A DNA stretch of 49,163 nt from a virus, in the IMG/VR virus record IMGVR_UViG_3300030098_004287, positions 1 through 49,163 of that record. The stretch is one strand, 5' to 3'. A model generated the notes under the pieces. The model searched no databases and was not told the origin of the DNA. It was given only the letters and a program-made list of their open reading frames with translations. Shown here one piece after another: positions 25,546-41,729 of this stretch. A program made the position numbers and the translations under genes. The stretch's first letter is position 1; each line of letters opens with the position of its first letter.

Positions 25546-27846
25546 ATGTCTACTAGAAATACAGCTAAAAATCTACAAAATACTAAACAAGCTATTATAA
25601 AAAGATTTAAACATCCACCTGGTCCTGGTATAGGAAAAGATGGTGATTTAGGAATAGCAATGGTCCCTAGAAAGGGACTTCATTTTTTCCATAAGTATGG
25701 AGGACAATGGTATGGTATTAGAATGGATAGAGTTATTAATACCGAACAAGATGATAGAAGAGTTGTAATACCAGGCGGTGAAACTAAAGAAAATGGTGAA
25801 CTTGCTTACAATGGTGGTAAAGTTCAAATACAAACAAGCGATGCAACTCGTAAAGAATTATATAGAGCAGGTGGTACTAATGTAGCTATAGCAGATGGTG
25901 GAACAAATGCTGATACAGCAGATGGAGCATTAGATAATTTAGGTGGTACAACTGTTGGTAAAAATTTATTTAAAGCTACAAATGAAGCAAATGCACGTTC
26001 TGCTATTAGTGTAGATGCTGCAGGTACAGATAATTCTACCCCTGTCACAATAGCATCAGGAAAAGATTACATATCATTATCAGGACAAGAACTAACTCTT
26101 GGCAACATAGATTTAACAAGTGATGTTACAGGAACATTACCTGTAGGCAATACAGAGGCTAAATGCACAGATGCTAATGCTGACCAAACAAGTGCCAATA
26201 ATGCTGCATCTGCTACTGTATTAGAGACTGCTAGAGATATAGGCGGAGTAAGTTTTAATGGTTCTGCATCTATAAATCTTCCAGGAGTCAATACAGCAGG
26301 TAATCAAAATACTTCAGGCAATGCTGATACTGCTACGTTAGCAGCAAAAGCTACTGGAATTAATACTACTTCTAATGGATTTGTTAAAACTGGTAGTGGT
26401 GATGGAACTATTTCTGTTAGTGCAAATGTAGACATGGCAAATGATGTGACTGGAACTTTACCCGTAGGTAATGGAGGAACAGGATTAACTGATATAAGTA
26501 CATTATTAAATTCTAATACAACTAAAAACGATGTAGGACTATCTGCTGTATTAAATAGAGCACAAATACAAACTTTTGAGCAAGCTGGAGTGCCTACTTC
26601 TACAGCTGCTGGAGATTTGTGGATTGATACTGATGATGACAATAAATTATATATAGCTGCAGCAGCAGGCAGTGATGAAATAAAAGCAGGTGAATGGGTA
26701 TTATATAAAACTTATGCAGCTAAAACTGAAGCATTAGCTAGTGCTGTTAATATAGGTGGAGTATCTTTTGATGGAAGTAGTAATATAGATTTACCTGGAG
26801 TTAATACAGCGGGCAATCAAAATACTAGTGGTATTGCAGCAAAGGCTACTAATATTAATACAAGCGATAATGGGTTTGTAAAGACGGGTAGTAGCAATGG
26901 AACTGTGTCTATTAGTTCTCAAGTAGATTTAACAAGTGATGTTACAGGAACATTACCTACAAGCAATACAGCAGCTAAAGTTACAGAGGTTGATGGAAAT
27001 ACTGGGGCTGTTACTGCAGCCGAAATTAAAGCCACTGCTTTGACAGATGCTACTGCAGGTACATTAACTGCATCTAAAGCTATTGTTGTAGATAGCAACA
27101 GTAGAATAGATACATTAAAAGCAGAAGGTGTTACGGTAGGAACTGGTAGTGGTCATGCTGTAATTACATCAGAAGGCGATTATAATATTAGTTTAAAAAC
27201 TGGAAACAGCGATACTGGAACCATTAGTATTATAGATGGAGCTGATGAAGCTATTAATCTTGCTCCTAATGGAACTGGAGTTATAAGAGTTGGTGGTGGA
27301 AGTAACGCAGGACATATTACAACTAAGAATGCACAAGATTTAAAATTAAGTACTAATGACGATACTAATAGCGGTACAATTACAATTACAGATGGAGCTA
27401 CTGGAGATATTACAATTGCTCCTCAAAGAAATACAGTTACTGCTTCACCTATTGGTTTTACACATGTAACTACAGATGGGGGGAGTACGGGAAATGTTAC
27501 TGATGTTCCAATAAATTTTGCAACAAGTGGGAATAAATATAGATTAACTTTTACTGGGGGAACGCAAACATTTACTAATGTTCAATTAGTTTTTCCTTCG
27601 GGGATATCAGGTAATTTTACGTTAATAGTAAAAACACATAGTAGTGTTTCTACAAATGCTATTACTAATTATCTTGCTTATGTTGGAGATACATCAACTG
27701 CCGCTACTGTTAATGCTGTAATTTGGCCAGGAGGTTCAAAGCCTACTATTACTAATACAGCAGACAGAACTGACATAATTAGTTTTTATTGGGATTCTGA
27801 TGCTCAAGCAGCATATGGAGTTATAACGCAAGATTTTTCAGTATAA
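25546..27846 (+). CDS. Tail fibre protein with internal repeats (766 aa)
   Basis: Recognisable as a trimeric tail fibre from the recurring module DVTGTLPVGN (three variants near residues 195-450, one followed by GGTG) and from the pair GVNTAGNQNTSGNADT and GVNTAGNQNTSGIAAK within GVSFxGSxxINLPG units, both repeated about 160 residues apart. Such repeats fold as shaft beta structures. The first 100 residues, including a GPGIGKDGDLGI segment, probably attach to the virion. The last 130 residues (VPINFATSGNKYRLTF, WPGGSKPTITNTADRTDIIS) form the kind of distal domain common in marine-phage fibres. Confidence 0.8.
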   Translation: MSTRNTAKNLQNTKQAIIKRFKHPPGPGIGKDGDLGIAMVPRKGLHFFHKYGGQWYGIRMDRVINTEQDDRRVVIPGGETKENGELAYNGGKVQIQTSDATRKELYRAGGTNVAIADGGTNADTADGALDNLGGTTVGKNLFKATNEANARSAISVDAAGTDNSTPVTIASGKDYISLSGQELTLGNIDLTSDVTGTLPVGNTEAKCTDANADQTSANNAASATVLETARDIGGVSFNGSASINLPGVNTAGNQNTSGNADTATLAAKATGINTTSNGFVKTGSGDGTISVSANVDMANDVTGTLPVGNGGTGLTDISTLLNSNTTKNDVGLSAVLNRAQIQTFEQAGVPTSTAAGDLWIDTDDDNKLYIAAAAGSDEIKAGEWVLYKTYAAKTEALASAVNIGGVSFDGSSNIDLPGVNTAGNQNTSGIAAKATNINTSDNGFVKTGSSNGTVSISSQVDLTSDVTGTLPTSNTAAKVTEVDGNTGAVTAAEIKATALTDATAGTLTASKAIVVDSNSRIDTLKAEGVTVGTGSGHAVITSEGDYNISLKTGNSDTGTISIIDGADEAINLAPNGTGVIRVGGGSNAGHITTKNAQDLKLSTNDDTNSGTITITDGATGDITIAPQRNTVTASPIGFTHVTTDGGSTGNVTDVPINFATSGNKYRLTFTGGTQTFTNVQLVFPSGISGNFTLIVKTHSSVSTNAITNYLAYVGDTSTAATVNAVIWPGGSKPTITNTADRTDIISFYWDSDAQAAYGVITQDFSV

Positions 27847-28397
27847 TGGCATTTAAAGATAACACATTAGAATTTAGCGATACTCAAATCTTTGATGTAG
27901 AGTCAGGGATGGAAGTAATGATGTTTTGGGAAGCTCCTATAATGCAAAAAGCTGCAGAATATACATCACATAACAATGGAGATGTGCTTGAAATAGGATT
28001 TGGTATGGGTATATGTGCTAATTATATACAAGAACAAGGTGTAAATAGCCATACAATAATTGAAATACATCCACAGATTTTAGAGAAGTTAAATGACTGG
28101 GCTAGTGGCAAGTCTAATGTAACAATAATTGAGGGAGATTGGGCTAATTTGAGCCTTACAGACACATATGATGGTATCTTTCTAGATACATTTGGAGATG
28201 ATAATTTGGATAGCTTTAAAACATTTGCATTAGAACGTATTAAATCAGGTGGTAAAATAACATATTGGAATAATGAGCCTACTGAAAATAATAAATATGC
28301 ATTTGATTCTATATCATATGAGCAGATAAATGTAACTCCTGATGAAAATCTATACTTTGATAGTAATGTTTATTATATGCCAAAGGTAGTAGTGTAA
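27846..28397 (+). CDS. GAMT-like SAM-dependent methyltransferase (183 aa)
   Basis: Class I methyltransferase with motif I VLEIGFGMG (47-55), the acidic end of strand 2 in IIEIHP (Glu73), and a YDGIFLDTF motif (108-116). The pattern VMMFWEAPIM (24-33) followed by LEIGFGMG matches the guanidinoacetate N-methyltransferase/RMT2 group very well. In GAMT the WE glutamate and the YDT aspartate hold the guanidino group, and here Glu29 and Asp114 sit in those places. The gene lies between two fibre-type genes with TAATG overlaps on both sides, so it is part of the late operon. Substrate unknown: a metabolite, or an arginine of a virion or host protein. Confidence 0.8.
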   Translation: MAFKDNTLEFSDTQIFDVESGMEVMMFWEAPIMQKAAEYTSHNNGDVLEIGFGMGICANYIQEQGVNSHTIIEIHPQILEKLNDWASGKSNVTIIEGDWANLSLTDTYDGIFLDTFGDDNLDSFKTFALERIKSGGKITYWNNEPTENNKYAFDSISYEQINVTPDENLYFDSNVYYMPKVVV

Positions 28398-29053
28398 TGC
28401 CTACTGAAATAATATATTCTACTACTGGAGGAGATGGCTATGTAGGTAAAACTTCATCTACATATGCTGGTGCAAGAGATGCAACTACAGGAAGCTTTGG
28501 AAGTAATAGTTTGACTGCAAATTCATATGGAATTAGGTCTTCAGTAAGTACTGCAAGAGGAACTACATCATATGTAATATCAAGGTCGTTTTTTTATTTT
28601 AATACATCTACTATTACAACAGCTCCTGATTCTGGTATATTAAAAGTACGTGGAAGAACATTTGGAAACTCTGATGTTGCATGTGTTAAAGCAACTCATG
28701 GAGTAAGTTTAACCACTGCTGATTTTGATGCTATAACAGGATGGCAAACAGGAGTAAATAATCAATCGAATGTGACTCATTATGCAAATGTATTAACATC
28801 ATGGAATATTAATAATTTTAATAATTTTACATTAAATAGCGATGCATTAGTAGATATTAGGTCAAACAATACATTTCAAGTCTGTTTGTTAGATTTTCCA
28901 GCCGATTTAAGAAATGCTGCACCAACATCAAGTTCTAATTATAGTGGTCTTTGGTATGCAGATTATGGTAATACTGCTTACTGGCCACATTTAGATTTAA
29001 CAATGCCAGATGATGTGTCGACAGATGCTATATTTTTTGGAGCAAATTTTTAG
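28397..29053 (+). CDS. Fibre-type or receptor-binding beta protein (218 aa)
   Basis: Beta-sandwich protein with an SRSFFYFNTSTITTAPDSGI-like opening and many aromatic residues, similar in style to the DNRLRE/CBM-like domains of adhesins and distal fibre domains. No catalytic signature. It overlaps the methyltransferase gene by TAATG. Likely an appendage or receptor-binding component, based on composition and context. A 53-base AT-rich gap follows, with a TGTTATATT sequence that may be an extended -10 promoter for the ejection-protein genes. Confidence 0.6.
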   Translation: MPTEIIYSTTGGDGYVGKTSSTYAGARDATTGSFGSNSLTANSYGIRSSVSTARGTTSYVISRSFFYFNTSTITTAPDSGILKVRGRTFGNSDVACVKATHGVSLTTADFDAITGWQTGVNNQSNVTHYANVLTSWNINNFNNFTLNSDALVDIRSNNTFQVCLLDFPADLRNAAPTSSSNYSGLWYADYGNTAYWPHLDLTMPDDVSTDAIFFGANF

Positions 29054-32720: not shown

Positions 32721-35700
32721 ATGGCAAAATTCACAACTAAAACACAATTTTTAGACGACTTCTTAGAAAAAAACCCTGATTGGGTACTTCCGTACGATAC
32801 CGTACAATTAAATTATGACTACCTAAAAAATTCTTTTCCTATAGATTCTAAAGGAAATGCAATTGACTGGGACAATATGGTTGACGAACCTAGTGCATGG
32901 GAAATAGGTAGTAAAGAATTTCAAAAAACTCTTAGTGGATTTGCTCGTGATGCTAGTGCATATAGCTTAGATATGCTTTCTGAGCCATTTGAATTTACAG
33001 AAAAGTATTTAGGAATAGGTGAAACTCAAGCTGAGTTTTATGATGAAGCTGCAGAAAATATAGCTAAGAATACTAAAGCATGGCGTGATAATATGCTTAA
33101 TGATGAAAAGTATGGAGCTGTAGCTAATTATTTGGCCGAAAATCCTTATGCTAATAATGCATGGACTGCTAAACAAAATGCTGCTATAATAGGAAATGGT
33201 CTTGCATCTGTATTAACTACTACTTTAGCAGCCAAAGGAGCTGCTGTAGCTGGTTCGTTTTTTGCACTTCCAACAGGAATAGCTGCAATCTTAGGTACAG
33301 GTGTAGCTATGTATGGAATGGAAGCTGGTAGTGAATACGGAGCTATGTTTGAGCATTATGCTAAAGATAGAGAAGTTAATAAAGAAACTTTTGACAAACA
33401 TTTAGCTTTATTCAAACAAACCGATGAATATAAAAAAGCACCTTTTGCTATACAAAAACAAATGGAAGCTAAATTCCTTCTTGATAATTATAAAATAGAT
33501 AGAGAAAAAGGCACATATACTAGATTAGGAATGACAGGAGATGAAGTCCGAGATATGGCTTTATTGTCTGGAAGTTTTTATGGATTAATATCATCTGGAT
33601 GGGAAATGACTTTAGGTCAAGTAAGTAATAGAATCATGGGTATTATTCCAAAAGGTAGTTCTGCTCAAACTAAAAATCCTTATTCTAATTCTATTAAAGC
33701 GTATTTTGCTGATAAGTTTGCTACTAAAATATCTTTCTTGCCTAAAGTGTTGCCAAAACAACGTGCAGCTGGAGCTAAATATATAAATAGATTACTTGCA
33801 GATAAAGTTGATGATGCTGGTAATGTTGCAAGTAAAGGATTATTTGATTACACTCCTTTAAAGCCTACAAATTTTGGTAAAGTTGTTGTTGCTTCAGCTA
33901 TGGAAGGTGTAACTGAAATGACTCAATTAATTTCTCAAAACGCTATAGCTAGTGGTTTTGATGAAAAATTTGGAGTTGATAAGCGTGTTGAAAAGATAAT
34001 TGATAATGATGAATTATTTCAAGCGTTTCATTCAGGTGCATTAATAGGTGGTGCTGTTCCTACGATTGGAGGAACTAAAAATCTTATTGGCTATTTAGGT
34101 CAAGATACTAAGCTAGGGAAATCAATTAGTCAAACTAAAGCTAGTATTAAAAATCAATTTAATATAAGAAAAGCTCTTGGTGATAGAGAGCAGCTATTTT
34201 ACTATAAAAAGATAGAAGATGGTGAGGGTTACGCTCTTGGTATGCGTACTAGGATAGAAACTGATATAATGGGTAATCCTATACCTAAAGACGAGCAAGT
34301 AATTGATGACATTGTAGATGAAAGAGAATTTGGAAGATGGCAAGAAGAAATAGGAATAAAAACTAGATTTGAAACTAAAGAAGAAGCTCAACATACTGTT
34401 GAAATGATTAATAATCAGATTCGTAAAGAATCTGTTCAGAAAATGCTTATTGACAATCAAGCTCTTATTGATGGTCAAGTATCAATGGTTAAGCTAGAAG
34501 ATGGTGGATTCAGAGTTACAGTTTTAGATAAAGATGGCAAAGAAATACAGCAACAAAAATTTGATAATAAAAGAGATGCTAGAAAAGCAACTAATACTCA
34601 AAAAGACAATATTAGGCAAATAAATGAGTTAAGGGATGAGCAGCCTGACTTTGTTAAAGGATTGGCTGAAAAGACTCAAGAAGGGCTTGAAAAGAGTGAT
34701 GTTCAGCTTGTATTAGATGACTTTGTTAATCAAGACCCTGTAGACTCTAATTCTCCTGAAGGACAAAGATTAAATGCATTATTGCCTTCTAACCCTAAAG
34801 AAAGATTAGAAAAGCAAATAGAAATACTTACAGATTTAAATGAAGAGGCTATTAATGATTATATAGATAGCTTAGACCCTGAAGAAGGCATTACTGTAGA
34901 AGAAATTAAAAGTGATATTATACGAGAAGCTAATGAGCTTGATATAGATGTAGACCCTGATAATTTATTTACAGGCGAGCAACAATTAAATAATCTTGGT
35001 GATACTGCTGTTGATGATGCACAACCTATTATAGAACCTACTCCAGATATTTTATTAGATGATATTACAGATGTAGAAGACACTAGTACTGTAGATATAT
35101 ATGAAGATGAAGTTGATACTACTGATGAAGTTAAATTTAAAGTAAAAGGATTAAATCAACCTGCTATATCAGTAAATAATATAAAAGATAGAACCGATAA
35201 GGTTACAGATAAATACCATAGTTTAGATGAAAATGACCCATTAAGAATTAAATTAGATAAATTAGGTAATGAATTTGATAAAAAATTTGACCCAAATGAT
35301 GATTTAGACATTGATAGTATGGATGAATGGACTCCAGAGCAGTTGTCTGCTTATTCAAAACTTTTAACAAATATTGAGAAAGAAATAGAGTCTGCAGAGA
35401 AAACTAAAAAAGCTCCTGCTCCTAAAAAAGCCCTTGATATAACAAAGCCTGTTGATACAAGAGAGTTTAATCCTAGTAGTATAAAAGGTGGAAATGTAGA
35501 AGCGTATACTACAGAGCAACTAGAAAATACGCTAGAAAATGCAGATGATATATATGGGAAGAATAGTGTTAATGCTACATTAGTAAAGAAAAGAATTGAA
35601 AAAGAATTAGACAAGCGTTATATAGATGAACTTCCAGATGATAAAGAAGCTCCTAAAAAGGAAACTAAACCTAAAAAAGAGCCTAAACCTAAAGAAAAAC

Positions 35701-38700
35701 CTGAACCTAAAAAAGAAGTTGAGTCTAAGGAAAGAATAGATGAAATTCCTGATGTTAATAGAGATTTGCAATTTGGTGATATACCCGAAGGACAAGAAAT
35801 CTATGATATGCGGGAAGAAAAATTAAATTTATCGGGTGACCAGAAAAGAGCTTTAAATTATACTGCTGATTTTATTAATGGCGATACACAAGTATTAAAG
35901 ATAGCAGGTTATGCAGGTACTGGTAAAACTACTATTATAGAAAATATAGCTAAGTATGCTAAAGATAAAAATCCAGATAAAAAGATTTACTTATCTGCTT
36001 TTACCAACAAAGCTGTACTTAATTTAGAAAATAAAACTAATACCAAAGAAGTAGCAGAAACAAAAACTTTGCATAGTTTACTTTATGGTGCTCCTGATGA
36101 AGTAACTGGAGATTATACATTAAGAGAACCTCTTAAAAAAGGTGATATTGTTATAATCGATGAAGCCTCTATGGTTGGTCAAAAAATGATGAAAGATATT
36201 CAAAAAAATATCTTAAATAAAGGGGCTAAAGTTATATTTATTGGAGACACTTTTCAATTACCACCCGTTAAAGATAAAAGTATATTTGAAACATTTGATT
36301 TTCAATTAGAAAATGTTCAAAGACAAGGATTAGATAGTCCAATATTATCAATAGCTACAGCTATTAGGTTGTCTGGTGAAAATGTAGTATTAAAAGAAAA
36401 TAATGATAACTTTAAATTATCGTCAAATATTGATATAGAATTTATAAATGAAATAGCTAATCCAAATATTGAAAATGACATAGTATATGTTACTGATATT
36501 AATAAAAAGCGTAAAGAAATTAATTCTAGAGCTAGAACTAAACGATATAAAGATGCTAGTTTACCTTTACAAAAAAATGATAAAATAATTTATATAGCTA
36601 ATAGTTATTATAATAGAAATGGTCAAAGTGTTACTGTTAATTCTAATAATAATACTAAAATGACATTTGTTAAATATGTAAAAGCTACATGGCTTAAATC
36701 AGAATGGGATAGTAATGCAGGGCAAATGGTTTCTAGGGAAGTTTCTATTGAATTAGAGCATTATAAGGACGTAGAAGGAAAAGATTTAATGTTATCTCCT
36801 GGATTTTCTGAAGCAGCATTAGCACATCAAGCAATATATTCAGAATATTTTGCACAATTTGTAGCAGGAATAGACCCTAAAGAAGTTGGCGTAAAAACAA
36901 TAGTTGATTCTAAAGGAAGACAATTATTTTCTTTAAGTAGAAATGCAGATATTGCTACATATGGTTACGCTATAACAGCTCATAAATCTCAAGGTAGTGA
37001 ATGGTCTAAAGTTTATGTAAATCAAATAATGGAAAATCCCAGGGGGTGGAAATCTGAAAATTGGTTATACACTGCTATTACTAGAGCAAAAGAATCTTTA
37101 GTGTTAGAAGATAAACAAAGTTATAAAAAATTATCTAACGATGAAATATCAAATATTGCTAATGAAGCAACTGATGAATCTGATGTTCGATATAGTATAG
37201 AAGAACAGCAGAAATTTATAGGCAAAGAAGCATTGTATGAATATATGGACTTTGTTAAATCAAAGTTTGTAGGAGAAGATGGAAGTCAGTTATTTGAATA
37301 TGAAGTTATAAATGACCCTAAGAAAAATTGGGGTGGAGTATATATAGCTGATAAAAAATTAATGAGATTTAATCTTGCTAAGATTAGTGCTGATACTCCA
37401 TTTCATGAGTTTTTACATCCATTTATAGCAGAGTTAAGAGTTAAAAATCCTAATTTGTTTGAATCTCTTTATAGTGAATTATTTAGAGAACTACCTAATA
37501 TGGCTAAAAGTATTGAAAAGTCTATTAGAAAAAACTATAAAGGTAAAAAAGCTTACGATGATGAAATTATTATAAGAGATGAAATATTAGTAACTGCATT
37601 AGGTAGAATTTCTGAAAGATTATATCAGCTTAAAAAACAAAATACCAAGCCTCAAAGTAAACTTAGAAAATGGATTGATAAAGTTTATAAAGCTATACGT
37701 GAATTTGTATTTGGACCTTCTTATGAAAATGTAGATAGCTTAACTCCTTTATCTAGCTTGCATGATGTTGCTAAGATAATGGTTTCAGGTAATAAAATAA
37801 AATTAGATGGAAGGAATCTTGTTGAAAATATACAAGCAGCAGGACATGATATTAAATTATATCAAATAACTTCTCCTAATAGTGTATTTAATATGCAAAC
37901 TAGAAGAATATTAAGAACTGCATGGAAAGGTGCTAGTAGATATTGGGCTAGAACACGTAATGGAGAACAATTAAATCCATTTGATTTTAGAGATATGATT
38001 AGAGATATTACTAAAAGCGATGAAGTACTTGATATTGTTGACGATTGGTTTAATTCTAAGTTTAAAAAGTATCCTGATTTTGTTAATAAGAATAAACAAA
38101 GAAACTTAAAAGGTAAAGTTAATACTAAATATATAACTGAAATGAAAGCTTGGGAACCTGAAGGTCAAGATAATTTTGTTGAAGGAATAAGAGAAGGTTT
38201 AGCAGATTTATCTCCAGATGATATTGATTTTAGCTCTGTAGCTACAAATGAAATACAATTTTATAGAAGGTTAAATTTAATAGCAAGTCAAAAAGAAATT
38301 GATTCTATTACTGCTAAAGTTTATCAAGCTACAGATTTTGATACCTTTTTAATGGAAATGAATAAAGATTTTCCTAATATGTTTTCAACACGTGAAGCTC
38401 AATCTGAAGTATTAAGTTTTTATCTTTTAAAGAAAAACATTATACGCATTAATAGAAATGAAGTTGCAGATAATGATAGACTTAATTATAATATTTTGAC
38501 TAAAAAAGAAATTGGAGTACCAGAAGGAACTATAATAAATAAAAGTATCCATATTAATACAGAAACTACTAATGATGGAAGCCCATTACCTCAGCAAGAT
38601 AGAAATACACTACTTGAAAGAAATGTAGGATACAATATTTTTAACTATCTTAACTTTAAAGATTCTGAAACTGAAACTACTAATTATAATCAATTTGATG

Positions 38701-41700
38701 CTGATGCTGGGCCATCTATACAAACAAAAAGAGATTATGTTTTTAGTGTACCAAAAAAGAAATTACTTTATGATAATGATATTGCATTTATAGGTACAAG
38801 AGGAGATAGTCCTAAACTATTAATAGCTCCTATTAAACCAAAGTATAAAGATATAGCTAGTGAAATACTTGCTAATGGTAAAAAGAATGTTACTAAGATT
38901 GGATATTGGAAAGACCAAATTGATAAAGGACTTATAAAAGAAGATGATGTTTTAAATTATACGTCTGATTTTACTAAAGAAGGCATTGCTCATGAGATAG
39001 CAGTGCATGAAGCTATGGTACAAGTATTCCCACAATATCTTAAAAAAGGTAAAGGTGGAGCTCCTAAATATAATCTTGAAACTATTTTAAAAAGAATTAA
39101 AATACCTACTACTCCTTCTACAGTTTCAGAAATGATGCCTGACTATGAAATTAGTTTGTTTGATAAAAAAAGAGTTACGTTTGTTCATGGAGAAAACGAA
39201 ATTTCAGCTATGCAAGGTATTGATGGAGTTGATTTTAAATATATAGGAGACGGTGGGTCATTTACTAGTAGCAAAATGATGAAAACTTTTAATAAAGCTT
39301 TTGGTGTTAAAAATTCTATTTCTACAGCAAAGACTATTATATATGGATTAGATAGGCAGGGAGACAGCCCTTCTATAAATGATGGTGTTGTAATGATAAA
39401 ACATAATCAATTTCTTCCTGAAAAAGGATTAAAGATTTATTATGATAGAGGTCTTCCTACAGAAAGGCTGTATGCTGAAATAGATAGAGATGGCAATATT
39501 TATGTTTATGATAAAGATGGAAATAAAGAATACAGAGATATGCTGCTTACTGATGATGAAGCTAAAATCTTAGAAGGTAGTTATTTAGATGATATGAATG
39601 CTAATGGTAAAATAAAATTAAAGGGTAATACTTTAGGATTTATAAAATCGCATGATAAAGTTCCTAAAAATTCTACTCATTTAACTCAATGGTATAATCA
39701 TATTGATAGTCCTAGTATTATTAATGCATTTGAAAATAATATTATGAAAGTTGTTAATAACAATCTTAGAAATAAAATGTCTAGTTTGTTTATAGAATCT
39801 CCTACTAATAGCGTAGTAGAAAATATGGAAAAATTATATACAAGGTATGATAGTGATGATAAAGATGTTTATTTTGAAACAAATGTAGAGCATGCGAAAA
39901 ACGGAGCAGGATTGCACATAAGTCAATCTTCTTCATTAAAACAAATAGTTAGAAATACATTAATAAAGCCTAATATTCATTTATCAAAAATGGATGGGAC
40001 TAAAGCAGATATTGTTCCTAATTTTAGAGGAGATTTAGCTGAAGGTGAAGTTGCTATATCTTTTGACAATGCACGTGTTATTAGAGAGAAAGTTAAAAAT
40101 AAAATGGGTGCAAGTAATTTTATTAAAAGAGGTCGTGCTGGACAACTACAAGCTATTAATGAATACTTAAAAGAAAATGAAGAATATGTTATGATATCTA
40201 GGTCTCCTGTACCACACGCTGGTGGTGTTATGATGGCTAGAGTTAAAAGATTGCATTTTCTTGAAAATCAAATAATGATTCATCACAATGATATATTTAT
40301 AAAATTAGAAGCTGATAGTGATGGAGATACAGTTCAAATAGAATTTTTAAATGAACCTATGACTAAAGCATATAAAGAATGGTTTGACAATCAAACATTT
40401 TCTGGAATATCTTTAGAAGATTATAAACGTAAAATTACTAACAATCCTAATATACTTGGAATAGATGGAAAGCCAGGTAAAAATTTAAATTTCTTTTCAA
40501 ATGAAAAAGGCAGAAGAATAGCTGTTAAAGAAATAGTCACAGGCTCAAAAGCTGTAGGTGAACTTGCTAATTTGCAGACAGTATATGGCATATTAAATTA
40601 TACTGTTAATTCTATAAACGTAGACGGTCAAGAAATATTTATGAGAAAGTTTAATGACCCTGTTAAAATAGGAAGAATAACTGATGAGAATATGTCTACT
40701 GCCCTTAGAATATTACTTCAAGCAGCTGTAGATAATAATAAATATATGATGATAGATGCTATTGGATATACTTCTAATGATATATATACAAGAAAAGAAC
40801 TTGTTATGTCAAAAATGTTTGTAGATAAAAATGGTAATGATATATCGCCAGATACTGCAAAAAGATTAATAGCTTTAATAGATTCTCCTAAAATAATGAA
40901 AAATGTATTTGGATTATCTAGATTAGGAGATTTTGATGGCAAGTTTACATTAGATGAAATCTATAGTAAAAGTGAAGATTACAATAAATTTGCTAATAAC
41001 AAAGATTTAGAGGTTCAAAAAATAGCAGAAGAATTAGATATTGGAGATGTTAGTATAGAATTTAATAAAGATATTAATGGTGATTATATTTTACATCCTA
41101 AAGAAATGTTAGCAGTAGTAGTAGATAAAACTAAAATTGAACATGAAATAGCTAGAAATACTAAATCACAAGAGCTTGGACCTTGGGATGTTAATTTAGC
41201 ATTGCATAAAAATACACATGTAGATGCTATGAATATTTTAAATCAAAAACCTCTTGTAAATCTTTTAAGAAATGCTGCTAAAAGAGATAATAATATAACT
41301 GAAGCTCATCAAAAACAATCTAGAAAAGATGCTTATGATTATGCAAAAGAGTTAATATCTAAAATAAAAAATTATACTGATAATAGAAATGATTTTACTC
41401 AAATGGATAAAAATGATATATTCCATCAGATTAAAACTGAAATGCATGAAAAGTTTTCACAATTATCAGAAGTTGCTAAAGTATATTCTACTATGATGTA
41501 TTTAGGTGATGGTACTTTAGATGCAGCTTCTTTAGCTACAACTATAATGCCTCCTGCTAGTGAAAATAAATATAAGTTTAATAACTTAGATTGGCGTACA
41601 TTAAACAAATATTTTGCAGAATATAATAAGATTATAAACAATCCTGCAGCTAGAAATTTCTCTGATAGAGTTCGTAGCGTAGATAAAAGAGATATTGATA

Positions 41701-41729
41701 ATTTAATAAAAGAGGTATGTAGTGTCTAA
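32721..41729 (+). CDS. Giant polyvalent virion protein: SF1B helicase, zincin-like motif and RNA-polymerase-like barrels (3002 aa)
   Basis: Seen in order: a hydrophobic, Ala/Gly-rich patch (152-203) that could insert in membranes; a helical and beta region with acidic linkers; a Lys/Pro/Glu-rich hinge (about 976-1005); a full SF1B RecD/Dda-like helicase with GYAGTGKTT (1063-1071), DEAS (1147-1150), GDTFQLPPV (1175-1183), ITAHKSQGSEW (1418-1428) and YTAITRAKE (1450-1458); a zincin-like HEFLH (1562-1566); and two RNA-polymerase-like elements. The first, NDGVVMIKHNQFLPEKGL (from 2220), recalls the beta-subunit barrel. The second, SRSPVPH (2493-2499) then ADSDGD (2531-2536), recalls NRAPTLH...NADFDGD of the beta-prime barrel. 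Likely packaged and injected; the enzyme roles are inferred. Confidence 0.8.
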   Translation: MAKFTTKTQFLDDFLEKNPDWVLPYDTVQLNYDYLKNSFPIDSKGNAIDWDNMVDEPSAWEIGSKEFQKTLSGFARDASAYSLDMLSEPFEFTEKYLGIGETQAEFYDEAAENIAKNTKAWRDNMLNDEKYGAVANYLAENPYANNAWTAKQNAAIIGNGLASVLTTTLAAKGAAVAGSFFALPTGIAAILGTGVAMYGMEAGSEYGAMFEHYAKDREVNKETFDKHLALFKQTDEYKKAPFAIQKQMEAKFLLDNYKIDREKGTYTRLGMTGDEVRDMALLSGSFYGLISSGWEMTLGQVSNRIMGIIPKGSSAQTKNPYSNSIKAYFADKFATKISFLPKVLPKQRAAGAKYINRLLADKVDDAGNVASKGLFDYTPLKPTNFGKVVVASAMEGVTEMTQLISQNAIASGFDEKFGVDKRVEKIIDNDELFQAFHSGALIGGAVPTIGGTKNLIGYLGQDTKLGKSISQTKASIKNQFNIRKALGDREQLFYYKKIEDGEGYALGMRTRIETDIMGNPIPKDEQVIDDIVDEREFGRWQEEIGIKTRFETKEEAQHTVEMINNQIRKESVQKMLIDNQALIDGQVSMVKLEDGGFRVTVLDKDGKEIQQQKFDNKRDARKATNTQKDNIRQINELRDEQPDFVKGLAEKTQEGLEKSDVQLVLDDFVNQDPVDSNSPEGQRLNALLPSNPKERLEKQIEILTDLNEEAINDYIDSLDPEEGITVEEIKSDIIREANELDIDVDPDNLFTGEQQLNNLGDTAVDDAQPIIEPTPDILLDDITDVEDTSTVDIYEDEVDTTDEVKFKVKGLNQPAISVNNIKDRTDKVTDKYHSLDENDPLRIKLDKLGNEFDKKFDPNDDLDIDSMDEWTPEQLSAYSKLLTNIEKEIESAEKTKKAPAPKKALDITKPVDTREFNPSSIKGGNVEAYTTEQLENTLENADDIYGKNSVNATLVKKRIEKELDKRYIDELPDDKEAPKKETKPKKEPKPKEKPEPKKEVESKERIDEIPDVNRDLQFGDIPEGQEIYDMREEKLNLSGDQKRALNYTADFINGDTQVLKIAGYAGTGKTTIIENIAKYAKDKNPDKKIYLSAFTNKAVLNLENKTNTKEVAETKTLHSLLYGAPDEVTGDYTLREPLKKGDIVIIDEASMVGQKMMKDIQKNILNKGAKVIFIGDTFQLPPVKDKSIFETFDFQLENVQRQGLDSPILSIATAIRLSGENVVLKENNDNFKLSSNIDIEFINEIANPNIENDIVYVTDINKKRKEINSRARTKRYKDASLPLQKNDKIIYIANSYYNRNGQSVTVNSNNNTKMTFVKYVKATWLKSEWDSNAGQMVSREVSIELEHYKDVEGKDLMLSPGFSEAALAHQAIYSEYFAQFVAGIDPKEVGVKTIVDSKGRQLFSLSRNADIATYGYAITAHKSQGSEWSKVYVNQIMENPRGWKSENWLYTAITRAKESLVLEDKQSYKKLSNDEISNIANEATDESDVRYSIEEQQKFIGKEALYEYMDFVKSKFVGEDGSQLFEYEVINDPKKNWGGVYIADKKLMRFNLAKISADTPFHEFLHPFIAELRVKNPNLFESLYSELFRELPNMAKSIEKSIRKNYKGKKAYDDEIIIRDEILVTALGRISERLYQLKKQNTKPQSKLRKWIDKVYKAIREFVFGPSYENVDSLTPLSSLHDVAKIMVSGNKIKLDGRNLVENIQAAGHDIKLYQITSPNSVFNMQTRRILRTAWKGASRYWARTRNGEQLNPFDFRDMIRDITKSDEVLDIVDDWFNSKFKKYPDFVNKNKQRNLKGKVNTKYITEMKAWEPEGQDNFVEGIREGLADLSPDDIDFSSVATNEIQFYRRLNLIASQKEIDSITAKVYQATDFDTFLMEMNKDFPNMFSTREAQSEVLSFYLLKKNIIRINRNEVADNDRLNYNILTKKEIGVPEGTIINKSIHINTETTNDGSPLPQQDRNTLLERNVGYNIFNYLNFKDSETETTNYNQFDADAGPSIQTKRDYVFSVPKKKLLYDNDIAFIGTRGDSPKLLIAPIKPKYKDIASEILANGKKNVTKIGYWKDQIDKGLIKEDDVLNYTSDFTKEGIAHEIAVHEAMVQVFPQYLKKGKGGAPKYNLETILKRIKIPTTPSTVSEMMPDYEISLFDKKRVTFVHGENEISAMQGIDGVDFKYIGDGGSFTSSKMMKTFNKAFGVKNSISTAKTIIYGLDRQGDSPSINDGVVMIKHNQFLPEKGLKIYYDRGLPTERLYAEIDRDGNIYVYDKDGNKEYRDMLLTDDEAKILEGSYLDDMNANGKIKLKGNTLGFIKSHDKVPKNSTHLTQWYNHIDSPSIINAFENNIMKVVNNNLRNKMSSLFIESPTNSVVENMEKLYTRYDSDDKDVYFETNVEHAKNGAGLHISQSSSLKQIVRNTLIKPNIHLSKMDGTKADIVPNFRGDLAEGEVAISFDNARVIREKVKNKMGASNFIKRGRAGQLQAINEYLKENEEYVMISRSPVPHAGGVMMARVKRLHFLENQIMIHHNDIFIKLEADSDGDTVQIEFLNEPMTKAYKEWFDNQTFSGISLEDYKRKITNNPNILGIDGKPGKNLNFFSNEKGRRIAVKEIVTGSKAVGELANLQTVYGILNYTVNSINVDGQEIFMRKFNDPVKIGRITDENMSTALRILLQAAVDNNKYMMIDAIGYTSNDIYTRKELVMSKMFVDKNGNDISPDTAKRLIALIDSPKIMKNVFGLSRLGDFDGKFTLDEIYSKSEDYNKFANNKDLEVQKIAEELDIGDVSIEFNKDINGDYILHPKEMLAVVVDKTKIEHEIARNTKSQELGPWDVNLALHKNTHVDAMNILNQKPLVNLLRNAAKRDNNITEAHQKQSRKDAYDYAKELISKIKNYTDNRNDFTQMDKNDIFHQIKTEMHEKFSQLSEVAKVYSTMMYLGDGTLDAASLATTIMPPASENKYKFNNLDWRTLNKYFAEYNKIINNPAARNFSDRVRSVDKRDIDNLIKEVCSV

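Follow-up and report, generated by a model that had tools for sequence, protein, structure and literature searches.

A GAMT-type methyltransferase gene of phages is linked to the gene of a CBM-like putative adhesin whose hairpin arginine the enzyme may methylate

A methyltransferase gene tied to its downstream neighbour

In the window analysed here (the whole stretch of DNA, 49,163 bases, which is the full length of virus record IMGVR_UViG_3300030098_004287), we found that a tail-fibre gene is followed by the gene for a small GAMT-like SAM-dependent methyltransferase and then by that for a predicted CBM-like beta-sandwich protein (Table 1), and that the last two are almost always adjacent in related viruses. 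We propose, with a confidence that stops somewhat short of even, that the enzyme methylates protein arginine as RMT2 does, that its target is Arg54 of this neighbour, a CBM-like tail adhesin, and that it is dedicated to that protein.

The methyltransferase gene is a real open reading frame that overlaps both the stop codon of the upstream fibre gene and the start codon of the downstream gene at TAATG, and the four motifs originally read in it (WEAPIM, LEIGFGMG, IIEIHP and YDGIFLDTF) are all present in the translation. The same record carries genes for a P22-like portal, an SU10-type capsid protein, a phage lysozyme and a DnaB-like helicase, and its terminase is less than 27% identical to those of the listed isolates. 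A 3,002-aa open reading frame with helicase-like motifs (window 32721-41729) apparently encodes a large virion or ejection protein of several domains.

Table 1. Positions in the window of the methyltransferase gene, its neighbours and the residues discussed
Feature	Position	Strand	Basis
Upstream tail-fibre gene, 766 aa	25546-27846	+	PHROG tail fibre matches; body differs among relatives
Conserved fibre C-terminal tip domain, type A	27463-27846 (start approximate)	+	A tip of either type (A or B) precedes the enzyme gene in 80/82 loci
GAMT-like SAM-dependent methyltransferase gene, 183 aa, ATG start	27846-28397	+	Sequence, profile and fold matches
Glu29 codon (GAA), guanidino-binding Glu of GAMT	27930-27932	+	Read in the sequence; invariant in viral homologues
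SAM-binding motif I, LEIGFGMG	27987-28010	+	Sequence motif
Asp114 codon (GAT), guanidino-binding catalytic Asp of GAMT	28185-28187	+	Read in the sequence; invariant in viral homologues
Partner gene, 218 aa, predicted CBM-like beta-sandwich, candidate substrate	28397-29053	+	Position 3' of the enzyme; AlphaFold2 model; Foldseek matches 8wab and 7vbo
Partner Arg54-Gly55 codons, hairpin turn, candidate methylation site	28556-28561	+	Arg54 counts with and without the enzyme; turn in AlphaFold2 model

The enzyme belongs to the GAMT-type family

Human GAMT (E = 2.5e-17) and rat GAMT (E = 9.8e-16) were the best sequence matches in the PDB, far ahead of all others and with an alignment spanning Glu29 and Asp114, and a profile search against the same database also placed GAMT best (1.3e-20). 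When the AlphaFold2 model of the enzyme (pLDDT 96.6) was compared with known structures using Foldseek, GAMT was again the top match (E = 1e-14), followed by spermidine synthases (4e-8). Other collections were less specific: Pfam returned generic methyltransferase families only, NCBIfam nothing past its cut-offs, PHROGs weak matches at most and INPHARED a single match, in one huge phage. Judged by sequence and predicted fold, the enzyme is a member of the GAMT-type family, as had been predicted, and does not fall with unrelated methyltransferases.

In GAMT, an acidic pair binds the guanidino group, and the nitrogen that is methylated is the one carrying the chain. The original prediction placed this pair at Glu29 and Asp114, and both residues are conserved among phage homologues. 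Two scans of IMG/VR returned 417 and 462 relatives (the family is found on more than 400 contigs), and in the best 80 of each, two sets that overlap, the pair was present without exception, in 73/73 distinct viral rows from the first set and in 79/79 loci from the second. Across the aligned viral copies the SAM motif, Glu29, Glu73 and Asp114 are all invariant, and the lone exception to the pair among the viral homologues read was one degenerate copy. A divergent homologue at locus L325 (2598-3236), which lacks the acidic residues of the SAM motif as well as Asp114 and is followed by a divergent partner-like protein, is possibly a pseudo-enzyme, judging by its sequence.

Bacterial matches formed two groups. 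In about 26, among them a chlamydial group, these positions hold Glu/Asp; in about 50 they hold Gln (or Leu) and His. As both positions read Gln/His in the bacterial sister group, the two acidic residues change together. In the tree, the viral proteins, GAMT and the Glu/Asp bacteria lie on one side; the viral proteins form a supported clade with one MAG contig, which itself carries the partner gene, and GAMT falls in the Glu/Asp clade as the viral proteins do, though its long branch lies outside their clade. The Gln/His bacterial loci (L104, L116, L120, L145, L166 and others) encode a GAMT-like family of about 190-270 aa found in Flavobacteriaceae, Planctomycetes and other groups, and four further loci (L105, L106, L113 and L124) represent a family, mostly chlamydial and about 310 aa long, in which the Glu/Asp pair of GAMT is present.

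Near-obligate linkage to the partner gene

Wherever 250 bases or more of downstream sequence are available, the partner lies directly 3' of the enzyme gene, usually at TAATG, which holds for 271 of 272 copies, although these loci overlap between searches and many were found via the partner, so that not all are independent. The one exception is L325, where what follows looks like a divergent partner. In the first set the partner was downstream in 79 of 82 loci (the exceptions being the huge phage and two cut contigs) and a fibre tip of type A or B was upstream in 80 (the exceptions being the huge phage, LR745206, and one locus without upstream sequence); in the second set the partner was present in 79/79 loci and the tip was recognised in 69/79. 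The upstream fibre tip is a usual, not an obligatory, neighbour of the enzyme. In the huge phage, the enzyme gene (L014:9971-10555) ends a fibre cassette, and the partner is nowhere in the 634-kb record.

The cassette position is kept in different phages, which is the neighbourhood conservation that had been put forward as a check. Within the stretch compared, locus L004 and the window have only the enzyme (94%), the partner (78%) and part of the fibre in common, and it is this triad that otherwise different phages share. Fibre bodies differ between relatives, and the type A tip of the window and the type B tip of relatives, neither of which has a Pfam match, occur on fibres with unrelated bodies. 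Distances within type A correlated more strongly between enzyme and partner (rho = 0.47) than between enzyme and fibre tip (rho = 0.24). The enzyme gene is not a stray metabolic gene: its linkage is near-obligate and is to one downstream gene. This result does not support the earlier picture of an auxiliary metabolic enzyme whose location is unexpected, and the fibre genes that were thought to flank it are found on the upstream side only, the downstream gene encoding the adhesin-like partner, a compact predicted beta-sandwich.

The partner also occurs without the enzyme, in which case fibre and partner are directly joined. No enzyme gene was found elsewhere in these enzyme-less records, which may be incomplete, so that these phages could still carry one elsewhere. 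At five loci without the enzyme (L212, L215, L217, L220 and L221), the partner domain forms the C terminus of proteins of about 700 aa behind the same fibre tip.

The partner's predicted fold resembles carbohydrate-binding modules

The window's partner protein had no match in Pfam, PHROG or INPHARED, and 14 of 67 partner relatives matched CBM96 (Pfam) weakly. Its AlphaFold2 model (pLDDT 94.7) is a compact beta-sandwich for which the best Foldseek matches were a chondroitin-sulfate-binding CBM (8wab, 5e-6) and an alginate-binding CBM (7vbo, 3e-5). As these modules bind acidic polysaccharides, we infer that the partner may be an adhesin for such a polysaccharide. The likeness to the CBM96-like and chondroitin-sulfate-binding modules lies in the predicted fold, whereas identity is 8-12%, the TM-score is about 0.5-0.57 and the partner is a stand-alone phage gene encoding a putative binder. 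In the model, Arg54-Gly55 forms a short turn between strands 41-53 and 56-69.

Arg54-Gly55 is better conserved in partners that follow the enzyme

After clustering at 90% identity, Arg54 was kept in 121/122 partners with the enzyme and in 15/24 without it, and Gly55 in 115/122 and 11/24, respectively. Thirteen partner columns are conserved at 80% or more in the presence of the enzyme, and only these two drop in its absence; Arg63 and a conserved Asp near position 170 do not. Presence of RG in the hairpin was associated with presence of the enzyme (Fisher p = 1.6e-9, a statistic that ignores kinship). A comparison of phylogenetically independent pairs leaned towards the same association but was underpowered and not significant (10 pairs, with 4.3 for it and 1.0 against; median p = 0.375), and such a comparison in an earlier sample did not reach significance either. 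Because all columns share one tree, the column control is the stronger argument, though no proof of the substrate.

Individual loci vary. Within one supported clade, an enzyme-less partner (L193) reads Lys-Gly-Gly-Gly where a close relative with the enzyme (L033) reads Arg-Gly-Gly-Gly, the loop being otherwise similar, and at L278 an enzyme fragment lies beside a partner without the arginine. The arginine is retained in a clade whose loops read GRT or ART, and on a looser loop count an arginine is found at the turn in 17 of 24 enzyme-less partners, so that it either has an enzyme-independent role too or the enzyme was lost recently. A first, smaller enzyme-less sample had suggested a stronger loss of Arg54 (RG in 4/24), which weakened in the wider sample. 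No column of the type A or type B fibre tips drops comparably without the enzyme, and the tip is disfavoured as a substrate for this reason. Of the two original suggestions, guanidino compounds or an arginine on fibres or host surface proteins, a protein arginine is the better half, with the candidate residue in the partner and not in the fibre.

Proposed mechanism and alternatives

In the scheme that we consider the most plausible, the methyltransferase would be made in the same operon as the adhesin-like partner and be dedicated to that gene's product. In the model, Arg54 lies at the turn of the longest beta-hairpin of the adhesin; its guanidinium would be bound by Glu29 and Asp114 and would receive the methyl group of SAM. 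RMT2, the protein arginine delta-N-methyltransferase of fungi and plants, carries out the same chemistry as GAMT on protein arginine, and by analogy with both enzymes the product would be delta-N-monomethylarginine. On the virion, methylation might tune the adhesin's receptor binding or its stability. More broadly, there may be a widespread marine phage system, which we hold with the same reserve at not quite an even chance, in which a GAMT/RMT2-type enzyme methylates the hairpin arginine of a dedicated receptor-binding adhesin and the enzyme-adhesin pair moves between unrelated phages.

Near-obligate linkage would suit any modification of the partner, and the enzyme might instead act elsewhere in or around the adhesin cassette, on another partner residue, on the fibre, or on a host surface protein or glycan that the adhesin meets. 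Partner Arg63 is also invariant, and the fibre tip lies 5' of the enzyme in 80/82 first-set loci; but Arg63 and the conserved tip columns stay conserved without the enzyme, and the tip was not recognised in 10/79 second-set loci, so we think this unlikely while giving it real weight. We judge it improbable that the gene serves metabolism, encoding an auxiliary GAMT with guanidinoacetate or free arginine as its substrate during infection. Its family, fold and guanidino-binding pair are those of GAMT, and viral GAMT (K00542) is enriched 85.4-fold over microbial homologues in the ocean (PMC11360552). However, the gene sits between fibre and adhesin in an operon and is tied to one partner in many contigs, the part of the enzyme that follows the catalytic core is shorter than in GAMT, and the window contains no amidinotransferase match. 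A creatine kinase search also gave no match, but neither did its control give a signal.

Genes for fibre assembly are typically placed much as this one is, between fibre and adhesin, and the fold might have been co-opted to help assemble or chaperone the adhesin, whether catalytic or not. The divergent L325 protein without catalytic motifs would fit such a role. The invariance of the SAM motif, Glu29, Glu73 and Asp114 in aligned viral copies, with the pair likewise invariant in the second set, and the existence of partners without the enzyme speak against it, making it a very doubtful explanation.

Comparison with known systems

The phage enzyme resembles GAMT (PDB 3orh, 1xcj and 1khh) in its fold, SAM motif, acidic pair, Trp28 and Asn142, at about 26% identity. 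It differs in length (183 aa compared with about 236 aa), with less sequence after the catalytic core, and in its setting, a fibre-adhesin operon in which no creatine pathway was seen and where the substrate is probably a protein. RMT2 likewise uses a GAMT-like catalytic domain on protein arginine, and the proposed chemistry is the same, but it is eukaryotic and has an N-terminal extension; the likeness is drawn by description and not by sequence.

A 2024 survey of AMGs in the global ocean filed viral GAMT (K00542) under creatine synthesis and ranked it as the most virus-enriched ocean AMG (PMC11360552). Those genes have the same annotation and also come from marine viruses and, judging by annotation and habitat, probably overlap the enzyme family described here. 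The survey assigned them to creatine biosynthesis, whereas the genomic context here points to adhesin modification; if these genes were among those counted, the enzyme-partner context argues against creatine synthesis and suggests that viral GAMT genes of this kind serve the phage's own adhesin.

In the papers searched, nothing was found on methyltransferases acting on tail fibres or phage adhesins. In phages of Cellulophaga baltica, arginine methylation has been reported for a putative tail fibre of free virions; the 2026 study presented methylated phage proteins as new but named no phage enzyme, and the host's methyltransferase was presumed to be responsible (PMC13288928). No methyltransferase gene is known from those phages, whereas the family described here is phage-encoded and offers a candidate phage methyltransferase with a named substrate and residue. 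If the proposal is true, the enzyme would be a protein arginine methyltransferase that a phage encodes and directs at a protein of its virion, and enzyme-tuned receptor binding would be added to what is known of phage adhesion.
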